Origin: Periplaneta americana
Lineage: Eukaryota > Arthropoda > Insecta > Blattodea > Blattidae
Assembly: GCF_040183065.1 (NCBI RefSeq)
Contig: NC_091118.1
Location: 206,212,686 to 206,276,685 of the forward strand
DNA: 64,000 nt
Direction of reading: 5' to 3'
Both the position numbers and the translations under genes were made by a program. A model generated the notes under the pieces. That model was not told the DNA's origin. It ran no database searches and was given only the letters and a program-made list of their open reading frames with translations. Below, piece after piece: positions 6,074 to 59,069 of this stretch. Within the stretch, counting starts at the first letter, position 1, and each line of letters begins with the position of its first letter.

Positions 6074-7257
6074 TATTACTTACTTACTGGCTTTTAATGA
6101 ACCCGGAGGTTCATTGCCGCCCTCACATAAGCCCGCCATTGGTCCCTATGCTGAGCAAGATTAATCCAGTCTCTATCATCACATCCCACCTCCCTTAAAT
6201 CCATTTTAATATTATCTTCCCATCTACGTCTCGGCCTCCCCAAAGGTCTTTTTCCCTCCAGCCTCCCAACTAACACTCTATATGTATTTCTGGATTCGCC
6301 CATATGTGCTACATGCCCTGCCCATCTCAAACGTCTGGATTTAATGTTCCTAATTATGTCAGATACAATGCGTGCAGTTTTGTGTTGTGTAACTTTTTCC
6401 ATTTCTCCTGTAACTTCATCCCTTTTAGCCCCAAATACTTTCCTAGGCACCTTATTCTCAAAGACCCTTAACCTCTGTTCCTCTCTGAAAGAGAGAGTCC
6501 AAGTTTTACAGCCATAAAGAACAACCGGTAATATAACTGTTTTATAAATTCTAACTTTCAGATTTTTTGACAGCAGACTGGATGATAAAAGCTTCTCAAC
6601 TGAATAATAACAGGCATTTCCCATATTTATTCGGTGTTTAATTTCCTCCTGAGTATCATTTATATTTGTTACTGTTGCTCCCAGATATTTGAATTTTTCC
6701 ACCTCTTCAAAAGATAAATTTCCAATTTTTATATTTCCATTTCGTACAATATTCTGGTCACGAGACATAATCATATACTTTGTCTTTTCGGGATTTACTT
6801 CGAAACCTATCTCTTTACTTGCTTCAAGTAAAATTCCCGTGTTTTGCCTAATCATTTGTGGATTTTCTCCTAAGATATTCACGTCATCCGTATAGACAAG
6901 CAGCTGATGTAACCCGTTCAATTCCAAACCCTCTCTGTTATCCTGGACTTTCCTAATGGCATACTCTAAAGCAAAGTTAAAAAGTAAAGGTTATAGTGCA
7001 TCTCCTTGCTTTAGCCCACAGTGAATTGGAAACACATCTGACAGAAACTGATCTATAAGGACTCTGCTGTACGTTTCACTGAGACACATTTTAATTAATC
7101 GAACTAGTGTCTTAGGAATACCAAATTCAATAAGAATATCATATAAAACTTCTCTCTCAACCGAGTCATATGCCTTTTTGAAATCTATGAATAAATGATA
7201 CACTCTACCCTTATACTCCTTTTTCTTTCCATTATCTGTGGAATACAAAATATCTTA
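6074..7257 (-). pseudogene. RTE-like retrotransposon, copy 3 (longest on this strand, RT core)
   Basis: On the minus strand the frame starts near 7248 and is collinear to 6094. It has the RT phrase HLFIDFKKAYDS with its Asp, then GLKQGDAL, then the catalytic box and the C-terminal tail ending NLRVH. A single in-frame TAA near 6989, where copy 8 has a Ser codon, splits it in two. The catalytic YADD box reads YTDD, so an Ala to Thr change has hit the active-site motif. A further local change scrambles the TGEWRKLHN phrase near 6400. The 3' TTAC repeat tail is at 6074-6090. Copy 3 is the best view here of the upstream RT core along with copy 8. Confidence 0.9.
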
Positions 7258-9145: not shown

Positions 9146-9310
9146 TTAAGAGAACAGTGTATTGTGATAATAAATAATTGAAAGAATTTTAGTTTTGTCC
9201 TTTAAATGTGTAGAAATTTGATCTGAAGAAATGTAACTTTTCTTTCCGAAAAGGAATTTTAAAATGTTACAATTGTCACTTATTATCATAATGCACAGCT
9301 CTCTTAAATT

Positions 9311-9515
9311 GATTGGTCCACACTTTTAGCGCGTCTGGCCGCGAAACTATTTGGCCCGGGTTTGAATCCCCTCAACTCAATATGAAAAAATGCTGGGTAA
9401 CTTTCGGTGCTGGACCCCAGACTCATTTCACCGGCATTATAGCCTTCATCTCATTCAGACGCTAAATAACGTAAGATGTTCATAGATCGTCGTAAAATAA
9501 CCTACTAAAAAATAA
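9311..9515 (+). mobile_element. tRNA-derived SINE, family S1, copy 1
   Basis: The head has a tRNA-like GGCCCGGGTTTGAATCCCC box B. The body reads GGTAACTTTCGGTGCTGGAC and CTCATTTCACCGGCATTATA, and the tail reads CTCATTCAGACGCTAAATAA then a region ending CCTACTAAAAAA. The same body and tail occur reversed at 17285-17529, so this is a dispersed family. Box A is weak here. Confidence 0.7.
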
Positions 9516-55079: not shown

Positions 55080-55766
55080 TAATTAGGCCTTTGACCTGTT
55101 TCCACATCAAGAGATTGTATCTTTCCATCTTGTAAGTGTACGTCCTACTTTCCTTTTGCCTTTAGGTTGATATTGAAGTGTCAGCTGTGGAAATCTATTA
55201 TGGGGTATCCTTTCAATGTGTTCTAACCAGTTCTTATTTGGTTTATTCTGTCATTTACGTTGTATATATTTAATTCTGTTCTTATGTCTTCATTATGTTT
55301 TTTGTCTAAAAGTGTATAACCCGCTACGGAACGCAAGAACTTCATTTCAGCTGTCTCTATTTTTCTTCTGTCTGATCTATTAAGTGTCCAGTTCTCACAG
55401 GCGTACGTTAACATAGGTATGCCATTGTTTTGTAAAATTTTAGTTGAGTGGTTCTTAATGTTTTATTTTTTAATGTTCTTCTTATTGTTCCATACATATC
55501 ATAGAATCTATTTATTTTTATATTGATATCATTTTTGGCAGTAGGATACATTGCATCCCAAATAGTTAAAGTTATTTACTTGTTCTATTATTTTTCCGTT
55601 AATCACTGTTTTGCATCTCAAGTGGTTTGTCCCTTCAAAAGCCGTACCTTTTGTTTTTTGTTCCGAAATTCTCATATCATACTCGTTAGCTATTTGAGTT
55701 AATTTAAATATAGCAATTTGTAAATCTTCTTCTGTGTTGCTTAATATTACTTGGTCGTCCGCAAAC
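55080..55766 (-). pseudogene. RTE-type RT relic, C-terminal part (interrupted)
   Basis: Minus-strand translation gives LFADDQVILSNTEEDLQIA near 55767-55700 (catalytic FADD), then MLTYACENWTLNRSDRRKIE and TAEMKFLRSVAGYTLLDKKH. These are the LTYG.E.WTL...AEMKFLR phrases of RTE-type RTs, a family distinct from the nine-copy one. Frames are broken between. Before the FADD box the relic is interrupted by the inverted-repeat insert at 55779-56466, after which a few codons continue to about 56500. Confidence 0.75.
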
Positions 55767-55898
55767 AGTATAGTGTTATTTCAAAGGCATATTGGTTCCG
55801 TTAAGTTCAATTTTAATTGAAAAATGAGTTCTATTCAGTCAATACTTAACATAAACACAATAAAACATGTTATAATAACATGTACACAGATTTAAAAA

Positions 55899-55936
55899 CA
55901 AACGTTTTCGCCAATTTTGATTGGCATCTTCAGGTC
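55899..55936 (-). ncRNA. Hammerhead-ribozyme-like motif, left arm
   Basis: Mirror of the right-arm motif: CTGAAGA at 55933-55927 on the minus strand, hairpin GCCAAT/ATTGGC, GAAA, and palindromic AACGTT at 55906-55901. Sequence identical to the right arm over this core. Confidence 0.35.
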
Positions 55937-56343
55937 GTGTAGGTCGAATGGAACATGTGCCTCATGGATTTCAAGACGTTCTTCCATTTTTTGTAAGTAT
56001 TGATTTAGAAGATTTAAATAATACTTAAATGCTTCTAAATATTCTTTCACTCTATCCTTACAATTTACAGGATTTTTCCTGCTCTCCATAACGGCCACAC
56101 GACCGACCTGTTCGTAGCATCTTCAAATCTATCTTGAAAACTGTATCTGCAATGACAGAAGAGTTTTGCTGTTTCTTTGGTTCACACACGCCTCTTTCAA
56201 CACAGTGATTCTTCACACATCGTGGAGGCTTTTTGCTATATTCTATTCTCTGTTTTTAAGTGATATTACAGTTGTAACTTTGGTTTTTAACGTCATATAC
56301 CAAGTGTTCACTTTTTTTATAACATGTTCCATTCGACCTACAC

Positions 56344-56381
56344 GACCTGAAGATGCCAATCAAAATTGGCGAAAACGTTTG
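56344..56381 (+). ncRNA. Hammerhead-ribozyme-like motif, right arm
   Basis: In order: CTGAAGA (56347-56353, fits CUGANGA), hairpin GCCAAT (56355-56360) with ATTGGC (56365-56370) as stem II, GAAA (56371-56374), self-complementary AACGTT (56374-56379) as a minimal stem III, then T56380 as the cleavage-site H. The first bases of stem I could pair (C56346-G56381, A56345-T56382, G56344-T56383). One extra U (56354) between CUGAAGA and stem II departs from the standard core. Short palindromic stem III is a feature of dimer-acting hammerheads (established); activity is untested. Confidence 0.35.
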
Positions 56382-56479
56382 TTTTTAAATCTGTGTACAT
56401 ATTATTATAACATGTTTTATTGTGTTTTATGTTAAGTATTGACTGAATAGAACTCATTTTTCAATTAGTATAGTGTTAA

Positions 56480-56839
56480 TTTCTACAAGTACAAATTATA
56501 TAAAAAAAAATTATACGTGATACACCGTCACGTAGAATGCGTTATCCATTTTCTGGAATTAAACTAAGTTGTATACAGAGACAGATACTAAGTCCTAGAA
56601 AGGTGGCAGTGCGCATGATCAGACATAAAACGAAACAAAACTAATTTTATTACCTCAACTAGTCCTTCTCTTGTGAACCAGGTCGCTCATCCTCTGATCA
56701 TGCGCAACTGCCTCCTTTCAGGATAAAACTTTTTTTCTAAGACTGTACAACTCAGGTTCTACTCTATTTTCCCATTTAATGAAGAGAATCAGACTTAAAA
56801 AATCAGGGAGCTACTTCTGACAATAAAAATGAAAAGGTC
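56480..56839. other. Gap without recognisable feature
   Basis: AGGTGGCAGTGCGCATGATC at 56600 and the reverse of 56695-56720 (GATCATGCGCAACTGCCTCC) form an imperfect inverted pair of a further small element; nothing else is recognised. Confidence 0.4.
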
Positions 56840-57250
56840 ATCATCATCATCAATAACAGTCTTGGATTAGGCCTCCTGGCCTGTTCCGCTTCCAGAAGAA
56901 AGTTGGTCTTTCCATCTCTTCCTTGGTCTTCCGATGTCTCGTTTTCCATGAGGTGTATAGTCCAATAGTCTCTTGGGTAACCTATTGTTGGGCATTTTTA
57001 ATACATGTTCATACCAGTTGTTGCCGTAAGATCTATAGTATACGTAATGGCGGTGATATTCAATTCTGTTCGGATGTCAGCGTTCCTTTTATGGTCGTAA
57101 AGAGTATATCCTGCAAGAGGTCTTAGCAACCGCATTTCAGCAACTTCTATTCTTCGAAGTTGTCCTTTCGTTAATGACCATGTCTCTGATCCATATAAGG
57201 TATCATACCTAAACATGATAGGGGCAGAAGAACAAGGAATAGAAAGTAGT
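56840..57250 (-). pseudogene. RTE-type RT relic, C-terminal part
   Basis: The minus-strand frame 57216-56998 reads TLYGSETWSLTKGQLRRIEV and AEMRLLRPLAGYTLYDHKRN, then DIRTELNI. It is related to the 55.1-55.7 kb relic. The 3' side runs to a short (TCA)n at about 56840, probably its tail. Confidence 0.75.
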
Positions 57251-57866: not shown

Positions 57867-59069
57867 CAGGGTGATCCGTTTGGGTATGAATAAAATAAAA
57901 ACACCGTAAAACACTTACTACTGAACTTTATTTGTTTAAACTTTGTACATACAACACTGAAAGATTCATAGATTTCAAAAAGGTATATGATTCGGTTAAG
58001 AGAGAAGTTTTATATGGTATTCTTATTGAATTTGGTATTCCCAAGAAAATAGTTCGATTAATTAAAATGTGTCTCAGTGAAACGTACAGCAGAGTTCGTA
58101 TAGGTCAGTTTTTGTCGGATGCGTTTCCAATTCACTGAGGGCTAAAGCAAGGAGATGCACTATCATCTTTACTTTTTAACTTCGCTCTAGAATATGCCAT
58201 TAGGAAAGTCCAGGATAACAGAGAGGGTTTGGAATTGAAAGGGTTACATCAGCTGCTTGTCTATGCGGATGACGTGAATATGTTAGGAGAAAATCCACAA
58301 ACGATTACGGAAAACACGGGAATTTTACTGGAAGCAAGTAAAGAGATAGGTTTGGAAGTAAATCCCGAAAAGACAAAGTATATGATTATGTCTCGTGACA
58401 AGAATATTGTACGAAATGGAAATATAAAAATTGAAAATTTATCTTTTCAAGAGGTGGAGAAGTTCAAACATTTGGGAGCAACAGTAACAAATATAAATTA
58501 TACTCGGGAGAAAATTAAACGCAGAATAAATATGGGAAATGCCTGTTATTATTCGGTTGAGAAGCTTTTGTCATCTAGTCTGCTGTAAAAAAATCTGAAA
58601 GTTAGAATTTATAAAAGAGTTATATTACCGGTTGTTCTTTATGGTTGTGAAACTTGGACTCTCACTTTGAGAGAGGAACATAGGTTAAGGGTGTGTGAGA
58701 ATAAGGTGCTTAGGAAAATATTTGGGGCCAAGAGGGATGAAGTTACAGGAGAATGGAGAAAATTACACAACACAGAACTGCATGCATTGTATTCTTCACC
58801 TGACATAATTAGGAACTTTAAATCCAGACGTTTGAGATGGGCAGGGCATGTAGCACGTATGGATGAATCCAGAAATGCATATAGAGTGTTTGGAGGCCGG
58901 AGGGAAAGAGACCTTTAGGGAGGCCAAGACGTAGATGGGAAGATAATACTAAAATGGATTTGAGGGAGGTGGGATATGATGATAGAGACTGTATTAATCT
59001 TGCACAGGATAGGGATCAATGGCGGGCTTATGTGAGGGTGGCAATGAACCTCCGGTTTCCTTAAAAGCC

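Follow-up and report, generated by a model that had tools for sequence, protein, structure and literature searches.

Copies of a Penelope-like element (PLE) in the genome of Periplaneta americana end at one of two sites 36 nt apart, a tail-less site (A) or a site that adds a 36-nt tail (T), and all 50 insertions with both ends read carried one end of each kind, with the tail at exactly one end. This pattern, drawn from sequence comparison, suggests that the insertions are stitched together from two facing DNA copies that have two different fixed start points on the RNA. The element from which the analysis set out lies in the window (the whole 64,000-nucleotide stretch of DNA analysed) and is a short, dead, ordinary copy of a Penelope-like retrotransposon; we assign a probability of about 0.8 to the reading that it is a 688-bp truncated PLE insertion made by two cDNAs converging from internal RNA sites T and A.

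The insertion in the window and its target

The 688-bp insert occupies 55779-56466 and lies between exact 12-bp duplications, within 55767-56478. A sequence-only reading had described the 12-bp duplication, inverted arms of about 146 bp, a one-sided extension of 36 nt and a hammerhead-like motif in each arm, all of which were confirmed by sequence comparison and a descriptor scan. The arms match in two paired pieces that are offset by 1 nt (55853-55958 with 56322-56427 at 99%, and 55814-55855 with 56426-56467 at 100%), and the interior has 97-99% identity to other copies where these have it complete. The features, several of which are named according to the preferred reading, are as follows.

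55532..55777, minus strand: target, a reverse transcriptase (RT) relic of 82 open codons with an FADD motif and the element at its end (RVT_1, E 3.9e-9, 37 bits)
55767..55778, no strand: left copy of the target-site duplication, AGTATAGTGTTA, identical to 56467-56478
55779..55814, minus strand: 36-nt tail with which the T-primed cDNA would begin; an extension present on the left alone
55815..55960, minus strand: left inverted arm, the putative remainder of the T-primed cDNA; its inner end varies among copies
55900..55933, minus strand: hammerhead-like motif of the inverted arm, with a predicted cut after 55900 (descriptor scan)
55961..56320, plus strand: interior of the putative A-primed cDNA; it derives from the PLE's 3' region, beyond the ORF, and is truncated on its 5' side in this copy
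56321..56466, plus strand: right arm, a sense copy of the pseudo-LTR end, with the tail-less A end
56347..56380, plus strand: minimal hammerhead-like motif, sense, with a predicted cut after 56380 (descriptor scan)
56353..56355, plus strand: AUG at the border of A9 and stem II, read from the sequence
56467..56478, no strand: right copy of the target-site duplication, AGTATAGTGTTA, identical to the left copy

The insertion had been placed within an RT relic. Such a relic does adjoin the left duplication, and its RVT_1 match (82 aa) lies on the minus strand and is read outward from that duplication; as no continuation was found by eye past the insert in the three minus-strand frames of 56467-57100, "at the edge of" a relic is safer than "in" one. 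Two further observations concern the neighbouring DNA. About 130 bp to the right of the insertion, a short inverted repeat, TGCGCATGATCAGA / TCTGATCATGCGCA (14 nt, 100%, window 56610-56706), may be part of another small repeat, and at 58229-58918 on the plus strand two frames, judged by eye, resemble a second non-LTR RT relic with a YADD motif.

An endonuclease-containing Penelope-like family

In a search of the window's own 3.23-Gb genome, 40 scored of 872 candidates yielded 110 matching pieces, and 39 copies besides the window's were examined, plus longer stretches around seven. With up to 2 mismatches, the arm-end pattern was found at 812 genome places and the tail pattern at 472, and the backwards-pattern control gave 0 in both cases. 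The interior and right arm of the window copy were found to be the common 3' end of copies that are 5'-truncated at many points, the longest of which reach into the ORF. A coding copy, L049, carries a 797-aa frame with GIY-YIG (PF01541, 7.6e-5). RVT_1 was not reported by Pfam in this frame at E up to 0.1; when its RT region was compared with solved structures, all three matches under E 0.05 were telomerase RTs (best 3.8e-4), followed by integrin alpha-M as a fourth match at 0.093. The frame of another copy, L048, matches RVT_1 at 1.3e-13. L049 also has a pseudo-LTR (pLTR), in which 6341-6455, upstream of the frame, repeats the 3' end, 9301-9415, at 95.7%.

The abundant family is an endonuclease (EN)-containing PLE, and the window copy is one 5'-truncated insertion of it. 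The family has an ORF with telomerase-like RT and GIY-YIG, a pLTR, 5' truncation, frequent inverted pLTRs, a 36-nt tail, an AT-rich target duplication and a minimal hammerhead (as a motif only); the ORF is present in the coding relatives and absent from the 688-bp window copy. A distinct non-autonomous family was ruled out, because the copies grade continuously from 5'-truncated to coding ones. The proposed type of unit thus survives in part: it is Penelope-like, with inverted terminal repeats, a one-sided tail and a minimal hammerhead-like motif, and it is a truncated copy of a coding family instead of a separate non-autonomous or retrozyme-like unit. Inverted arms and a target duplication would also be expected of a DNA transposon, or a MITE, bounded by terminal inverted repeats. 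The copies refute this reading, whose probability is negligible: arm length varies freely and no fixed terminal inverted repeat was found, one side has 36 extra bases, copies are truncated at many different 5' positions, and the long ones encode RT and GIY-YIG.

Some individual loci deserve mention. Among the 40 scored, L009 (C10:147213523-147214231) is the closest relative of the window copy; its arms end at 2785 and 2392, compared with about 2779 and 2419 in the window, and its target duplication differs, which indicates an independent insertion of similar extent. L010 and L011, on C3 and 0.7 Mb apart, have the same ends and matching flanks, and are probably a segmental duplication of one insertion and not two insertions. 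Three arm ends that point the same way lie 134 nt apart within C5:59686100-59686399, perhaps as a small tandem array of the pLTR end.

Pairing of the two ends and the route of insertion

Mapped on a reference (L049 6447-9415), copies end at position 2924 (A) or 2960 (T), give or take a few nt. The opposite end of two-ended insertions is a reverse-complement piece of the same 3' region, and in the copies read the length of the shorter arm varied between a dozen nt (in L028 and L033) and about 860 nt (in L049). Because both arms start in the 3' region of the RNA and arm length varies, an insertion has the look of two cDNAs that converge. The supposed terminal repeat, rather than being fixed, is another cDNA of the same RNA region, primed from the opposite side of the break. 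Where the arms meet, overlaps or a few extra bases were seen in the copy listings.

The one-A-one-T rule was read in three sets of copies. Among the 40 copies of set 1, selected by their interior and including the window's, all 25 two-ended insertions were A/T. Set 2 consisted of 20 places picked for an exact tail, without regard to arm length, from the exact-tail places listed (100 of 472); three (L058, L059 and L061) were undetermined, and the remaining insertions were A/T (17/17). Set 3, picked for having no exact tail listed at either end and hence the best A/A candidates, comprised eight outward-facing arm pairs read near their ends only. All 8 were again A/T, with a tail present but departing from the pattern and the other end A, and a word of 9-12 nt was shared right at both ends in 7 of the 8; in the exception, L080/L081, the duplication was degenerate. 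On C1-C5, which hold 98 of the 100 arm-end places listed (total 812), 23 neighbouring outward pairs lay within 7 kb: 8 are set 3, 9 were already in sets 1-2, and 6, picked out by eye, have an exact tail on the one side that was covered. Among the tail matches listed, none of these 23 pairs had exact tails on both sides. The one T/T candidate, on C5 and suggested by coordinates only, proved to be an internal pseudo-LTR when its letters were read, since the right tail continues into the ORF start.

If the two ends were chosen independently, the chance of one of each would be at most 0.5 per insertion, that is, 0.5^50 = 9e-16 for all 50. This result bears directly on the idea that each DNA end is served by an RNA and a complex of its own, independent of those at the other end, with the start site chosen at random. 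Two cDNAs per insertion are indeed observed, and in vitro work on an anole PLE, in the text available to us, saw no difference in start site between strands (PMC11167929). Random choice, however, predicts A/A or T/T in at least half of the insertions and is refuted by 0/50, and the arms of an insertion share source variants; we regard independent complexes as very unlikely. Two RNAs in one asymmetric complex are possible.

A target duplication of at least 8 nt flanks 39 of the 42 insertions of sets 1-2, with 12 nt the commonest length (19/39), and the 12-nt flanks in these sets are 82% A+T. Microhomology between primer and template was considered as well. TAA at the flank end (20/42) and AA at the flank start (23/42) are enriched over other positions; it is not claimed, because in many of these cases the letters fall beyond the duplication, agree with the RNA and are more simply cDNA. 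As a separate observation, four diverged copies (L057, L068, L070 and L074) have a tail that ends in TTTTAAAG or TTTTTAAG and not TTTCAAAG, and keep the one-A-one-T rule.

The arms of an insertion resemble each other more than they resemble those of other insertions. Mean arm identity was 0.971 within and 0.951 between insertions (32 compared, Wilcoxon p 4e-9), and 30 of the 32 lay above their own between-insertion mean, with L023 and L047 against the trend; 35 of the 42 insertions entered this comparison, and in L046, L060 and L068 the overlap was too short to score. From sequence alone, this higher identity fits one RNA, two RNAs of one locus, or later gene conversion. The reach of the two arms was analysed in 37 of the 42 two-ended insertions (L015, L019, L037, L049 and L050 were omitted as multi-piece or tandem, and the inner ends of L012, L026 and L030 are approximate). 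The A arm extended further by >20 nt in 21/37 and the T arm in 11/37, and the arm ends showed no rank correlation (p 0.40). Near-equal arm ends were weakly in excess, with 4 of 17 within 10 nt against 0.95 expected (permutation p 0.012).

These data also bear on self-priming, in which a cDNA, or else an antisense template, would fold back and serve as its own template, giving a head-to-head inverted repeat. Self-priming was proposed for a bdelloid Penelope from palindromes at inverted junctions, as far as the text available goes (PMC3846280), and the four insertions with arms ending within 10 nt are as a hairpin would give. A simple fold-back, however, gives like termini, and 50/50 were unlike; moreover, in the 21 of 37 insertions whose tail-less arm reaches further by >20 nt, the tailed arm could not have templated that sequence. 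Snap-back copying was rejected as a general route, being strongly disfavoured by the unlike ends, and we consider it very unlikely. The likeness of the arms and the A/T pairing fit instead one complex that copies RNA of one source twice, and argue against self-priming.

Our preferred route, dual priming, would proceed as follows. The endonuclease of the element would make a staggered break, from which the 12-nt duplication would result, and both exposed 3' ends would prime reverse transcription on the sense element RNA. Priming would take place away from the 3' terminus of the RNA, at two internal sites 36 nt apart near the start of the next ORF, with one DNA end starting at site T (the cDNA thus beginning with the tail) and the other at site A. 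The two cDNAs would converge and stop at variable points, and their free ends would be joined, leaving an inverted arm, a longer main arm, a single tail and flanking duplications. Several elements of this scheme are inferred. In this species, the fixed A and T ends would mark where RT begins; a single ribonucleoprotein, probably with a dimeric protein, would hold RNA from one source and present each protomer with one start site; the cDNAs would be joined through annealing of their ends or through repair; and the hammerhead would work on tandem transcripts and not in the inserted copy. Dual priming at two internal sites would explain the tail, the inverted arm, the variable length and the duplication together. 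We would give even odds to the stronger proposal that the reaction is obligatorily paired, with a dimer docking the RNA (one, or two of one source) asymmetrically so that one DNA end is T-only and the other A-only. If this is true, new PLE copies would typically be born as two convergent cDNAs, and the "optional" tail would be the signature of the DNA end that used site T.

Not all copies fit so neatly. In set 1, 15 of the 40 copies are without a long opposite arm. In two of these (L028, L033) the opposite piece, which is of the other type, measures just 12-13 nt; L043 has the duplication with the opposite piece absent, and in L017 the sole duplication, 85 nt upstream, is doubtful; L025 was followed short of its 5' end, L011 duplicates L010, and the other nine (L044 examined as L048) had no convincing duplication or opposite piece. 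In set 2, L058 has a T end alone, and its duplication was recognised by eye. The one-armed copies and L058 imply that one-cDNA insertions or other routes occur, and the rule concerns two-cDNA insertions. Extra internal pieces were present in four set-1 insertions (L015, L019, L037 and L050), and L050 has an additional inner tail-to-tail pair, which we read as a cDNA that ran through the ORF start into the upstream pseudo-LTR.

The hammerhead-like motif and comparison with known systems

The motif, starting at 56347 (plus) and 55933 (minus), consists of CTGAAGA, a T, a stem-loop of GCCAAT, CAAA and ATTGGC, then GAA, AACGTT and T. A descriptor (CTGANGA, an optional base, a 5-7-bp stem with a 3-7-nt loop, and GAA) matched the two arm sites only in the 64 kb, both strands scanned, and 0 in 200 mononucleotide shuffles, a mild control. 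Over the 34 nt, 58 of 80 motif copies (54 loci, omitting 18 that duplicate other fetched loci) are identical and the core is nearly invariant, which says little on selection, the copies being close relatives. With E values up to 10 allowed, none of the Rfam hammerhead models matched the window copy, L049, L070, L073, L074 or L076, searched as single copies without a PLE-ribozyme positive control. PLE hammerheads are usually minimal and without helix III, according to the text available of a 2017 review (PMC6155905), and weak sensitivity of Rfam to PLE-type motifs is therefore plausible. The predicted hammerhead fold is less stable than the free minimum by about 6 kcal/mol (-12.0 and -17.8, respectively), and the unconstrained fold pairs part of the hammerhead core.

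An extra U after CUGAAGA had been taken as a possible mark of a variant core or an inactive motif. A better reading is that it forms part of an AUG located where stem II begins; such an arrangement has been reported for the anole PLE, in the text available to us (PMC11167929). The predicted cut lies 28 nt from the A of this AUG, and from the AUG, at 56353, only an 11-codon frame was read by eye. The idea of two ribozymes facing each other holds in that the motifs do face, one per arm; their opposite strands follow from the two-cDNA structure, and the facing arrangement is probably a by-product of it. In 57 of 74 cases, the cDNA arm extends past the predicted cut, and most templates were accordingly uncut at that site. 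A cleavage footprint was also sought among the cDNA ends: 4 of 74 fall in 2834-2843 against about 1 expected (Poisson p 0.02). It is not claimed, because L027, L071 and L045 (just outside the range) end off the exact cut and L057 is too diverged.

A further alternative is a non-autonomous, retrozyme-like unit whose RNA is processed by two facing hammerheads, as the motif in both arms, the short length and the conserved core would permit. The 3' region is common to coding copies, however, and the motifs are on opposite strands, so that a single transcript has one in sense; the arms that pass the cut and the lack of an Rfam match (E up to 10, six single copies, sensitivity uncontrolled) add to the case against it. 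Retrozymes are non-coding units between hammerhead-bearing direct LTRs; the repeats here are inverted and variable, and coding relatives share the ends. We hold this reading to be highly improbable.

The strict pairing of start sites is the new contribution of this work, its scope being one genome, one family and two-ended insertions. Penelope of Drosophila virilis carries terminal repeats, either direct or inverted, together with a short extension of about 34 bp on one side. In the text available of PMC11167929, PMC3846280, PMC8969392, PMC7334843, PMC6155905 and PMC12910113, no mention of the one-of-each rule was found; the older Penelope papers (1997-2006), and those by Cervera and De la Pena (2014) and by Craig et al. 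(2021), may carry the rule or part of it. Together with arms from one source, the rule is a simple, testable constraint on the PLE insertion mechanism, and the pairing is open to checking wherever a genome contains young PLE copies.

In the text available to us, retrozymes resemble the cockroach family in having hammerhead motifs in terminal repeats; they are non-coding LTR-type units that move via circular RNA, whereas the cockroach family codes for RT and endonuclease (PMC4918200, PMC6155905). The Penelope of Adineta vaga (Arkhipova et al. 2013, PMC3846280), in the part of that paper available, is like the cockroach family in its inverted head-to-head pLTRs with the tail at one and in duplications of 8-10 bp. 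There, the tail was called "optional" and inversion was ascribed to self-priming, which the rotifer paper favoured, whereas in the cockroach the tail is at one end in 50/50 and dual priming fits better. A further counterpart is the Poseidon PLE of Anolis carolinensis (PAc; Frangieh et al. 2024, PMC11167929). According to the available text, the purified protein cuts and extends both strands, RT starts at two adjacent internal sites bounding the tail, and a dimer is predicted; later insertion steps are left for validation. The anole motif cleaved only when protein was added. Ribozyme mutants still inserted in vitro, in line with the cockroach arms of which most run past the predicted cut. In the P. 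americana copies read, the frame that begins at the AUG is short and the main frame is found further downstream, which differs from PAc as described in that text. To the anole findings, the natural P. americana insertions add the one-A-one-T rule, which is unstated in the available part of that study (PMC11167929).
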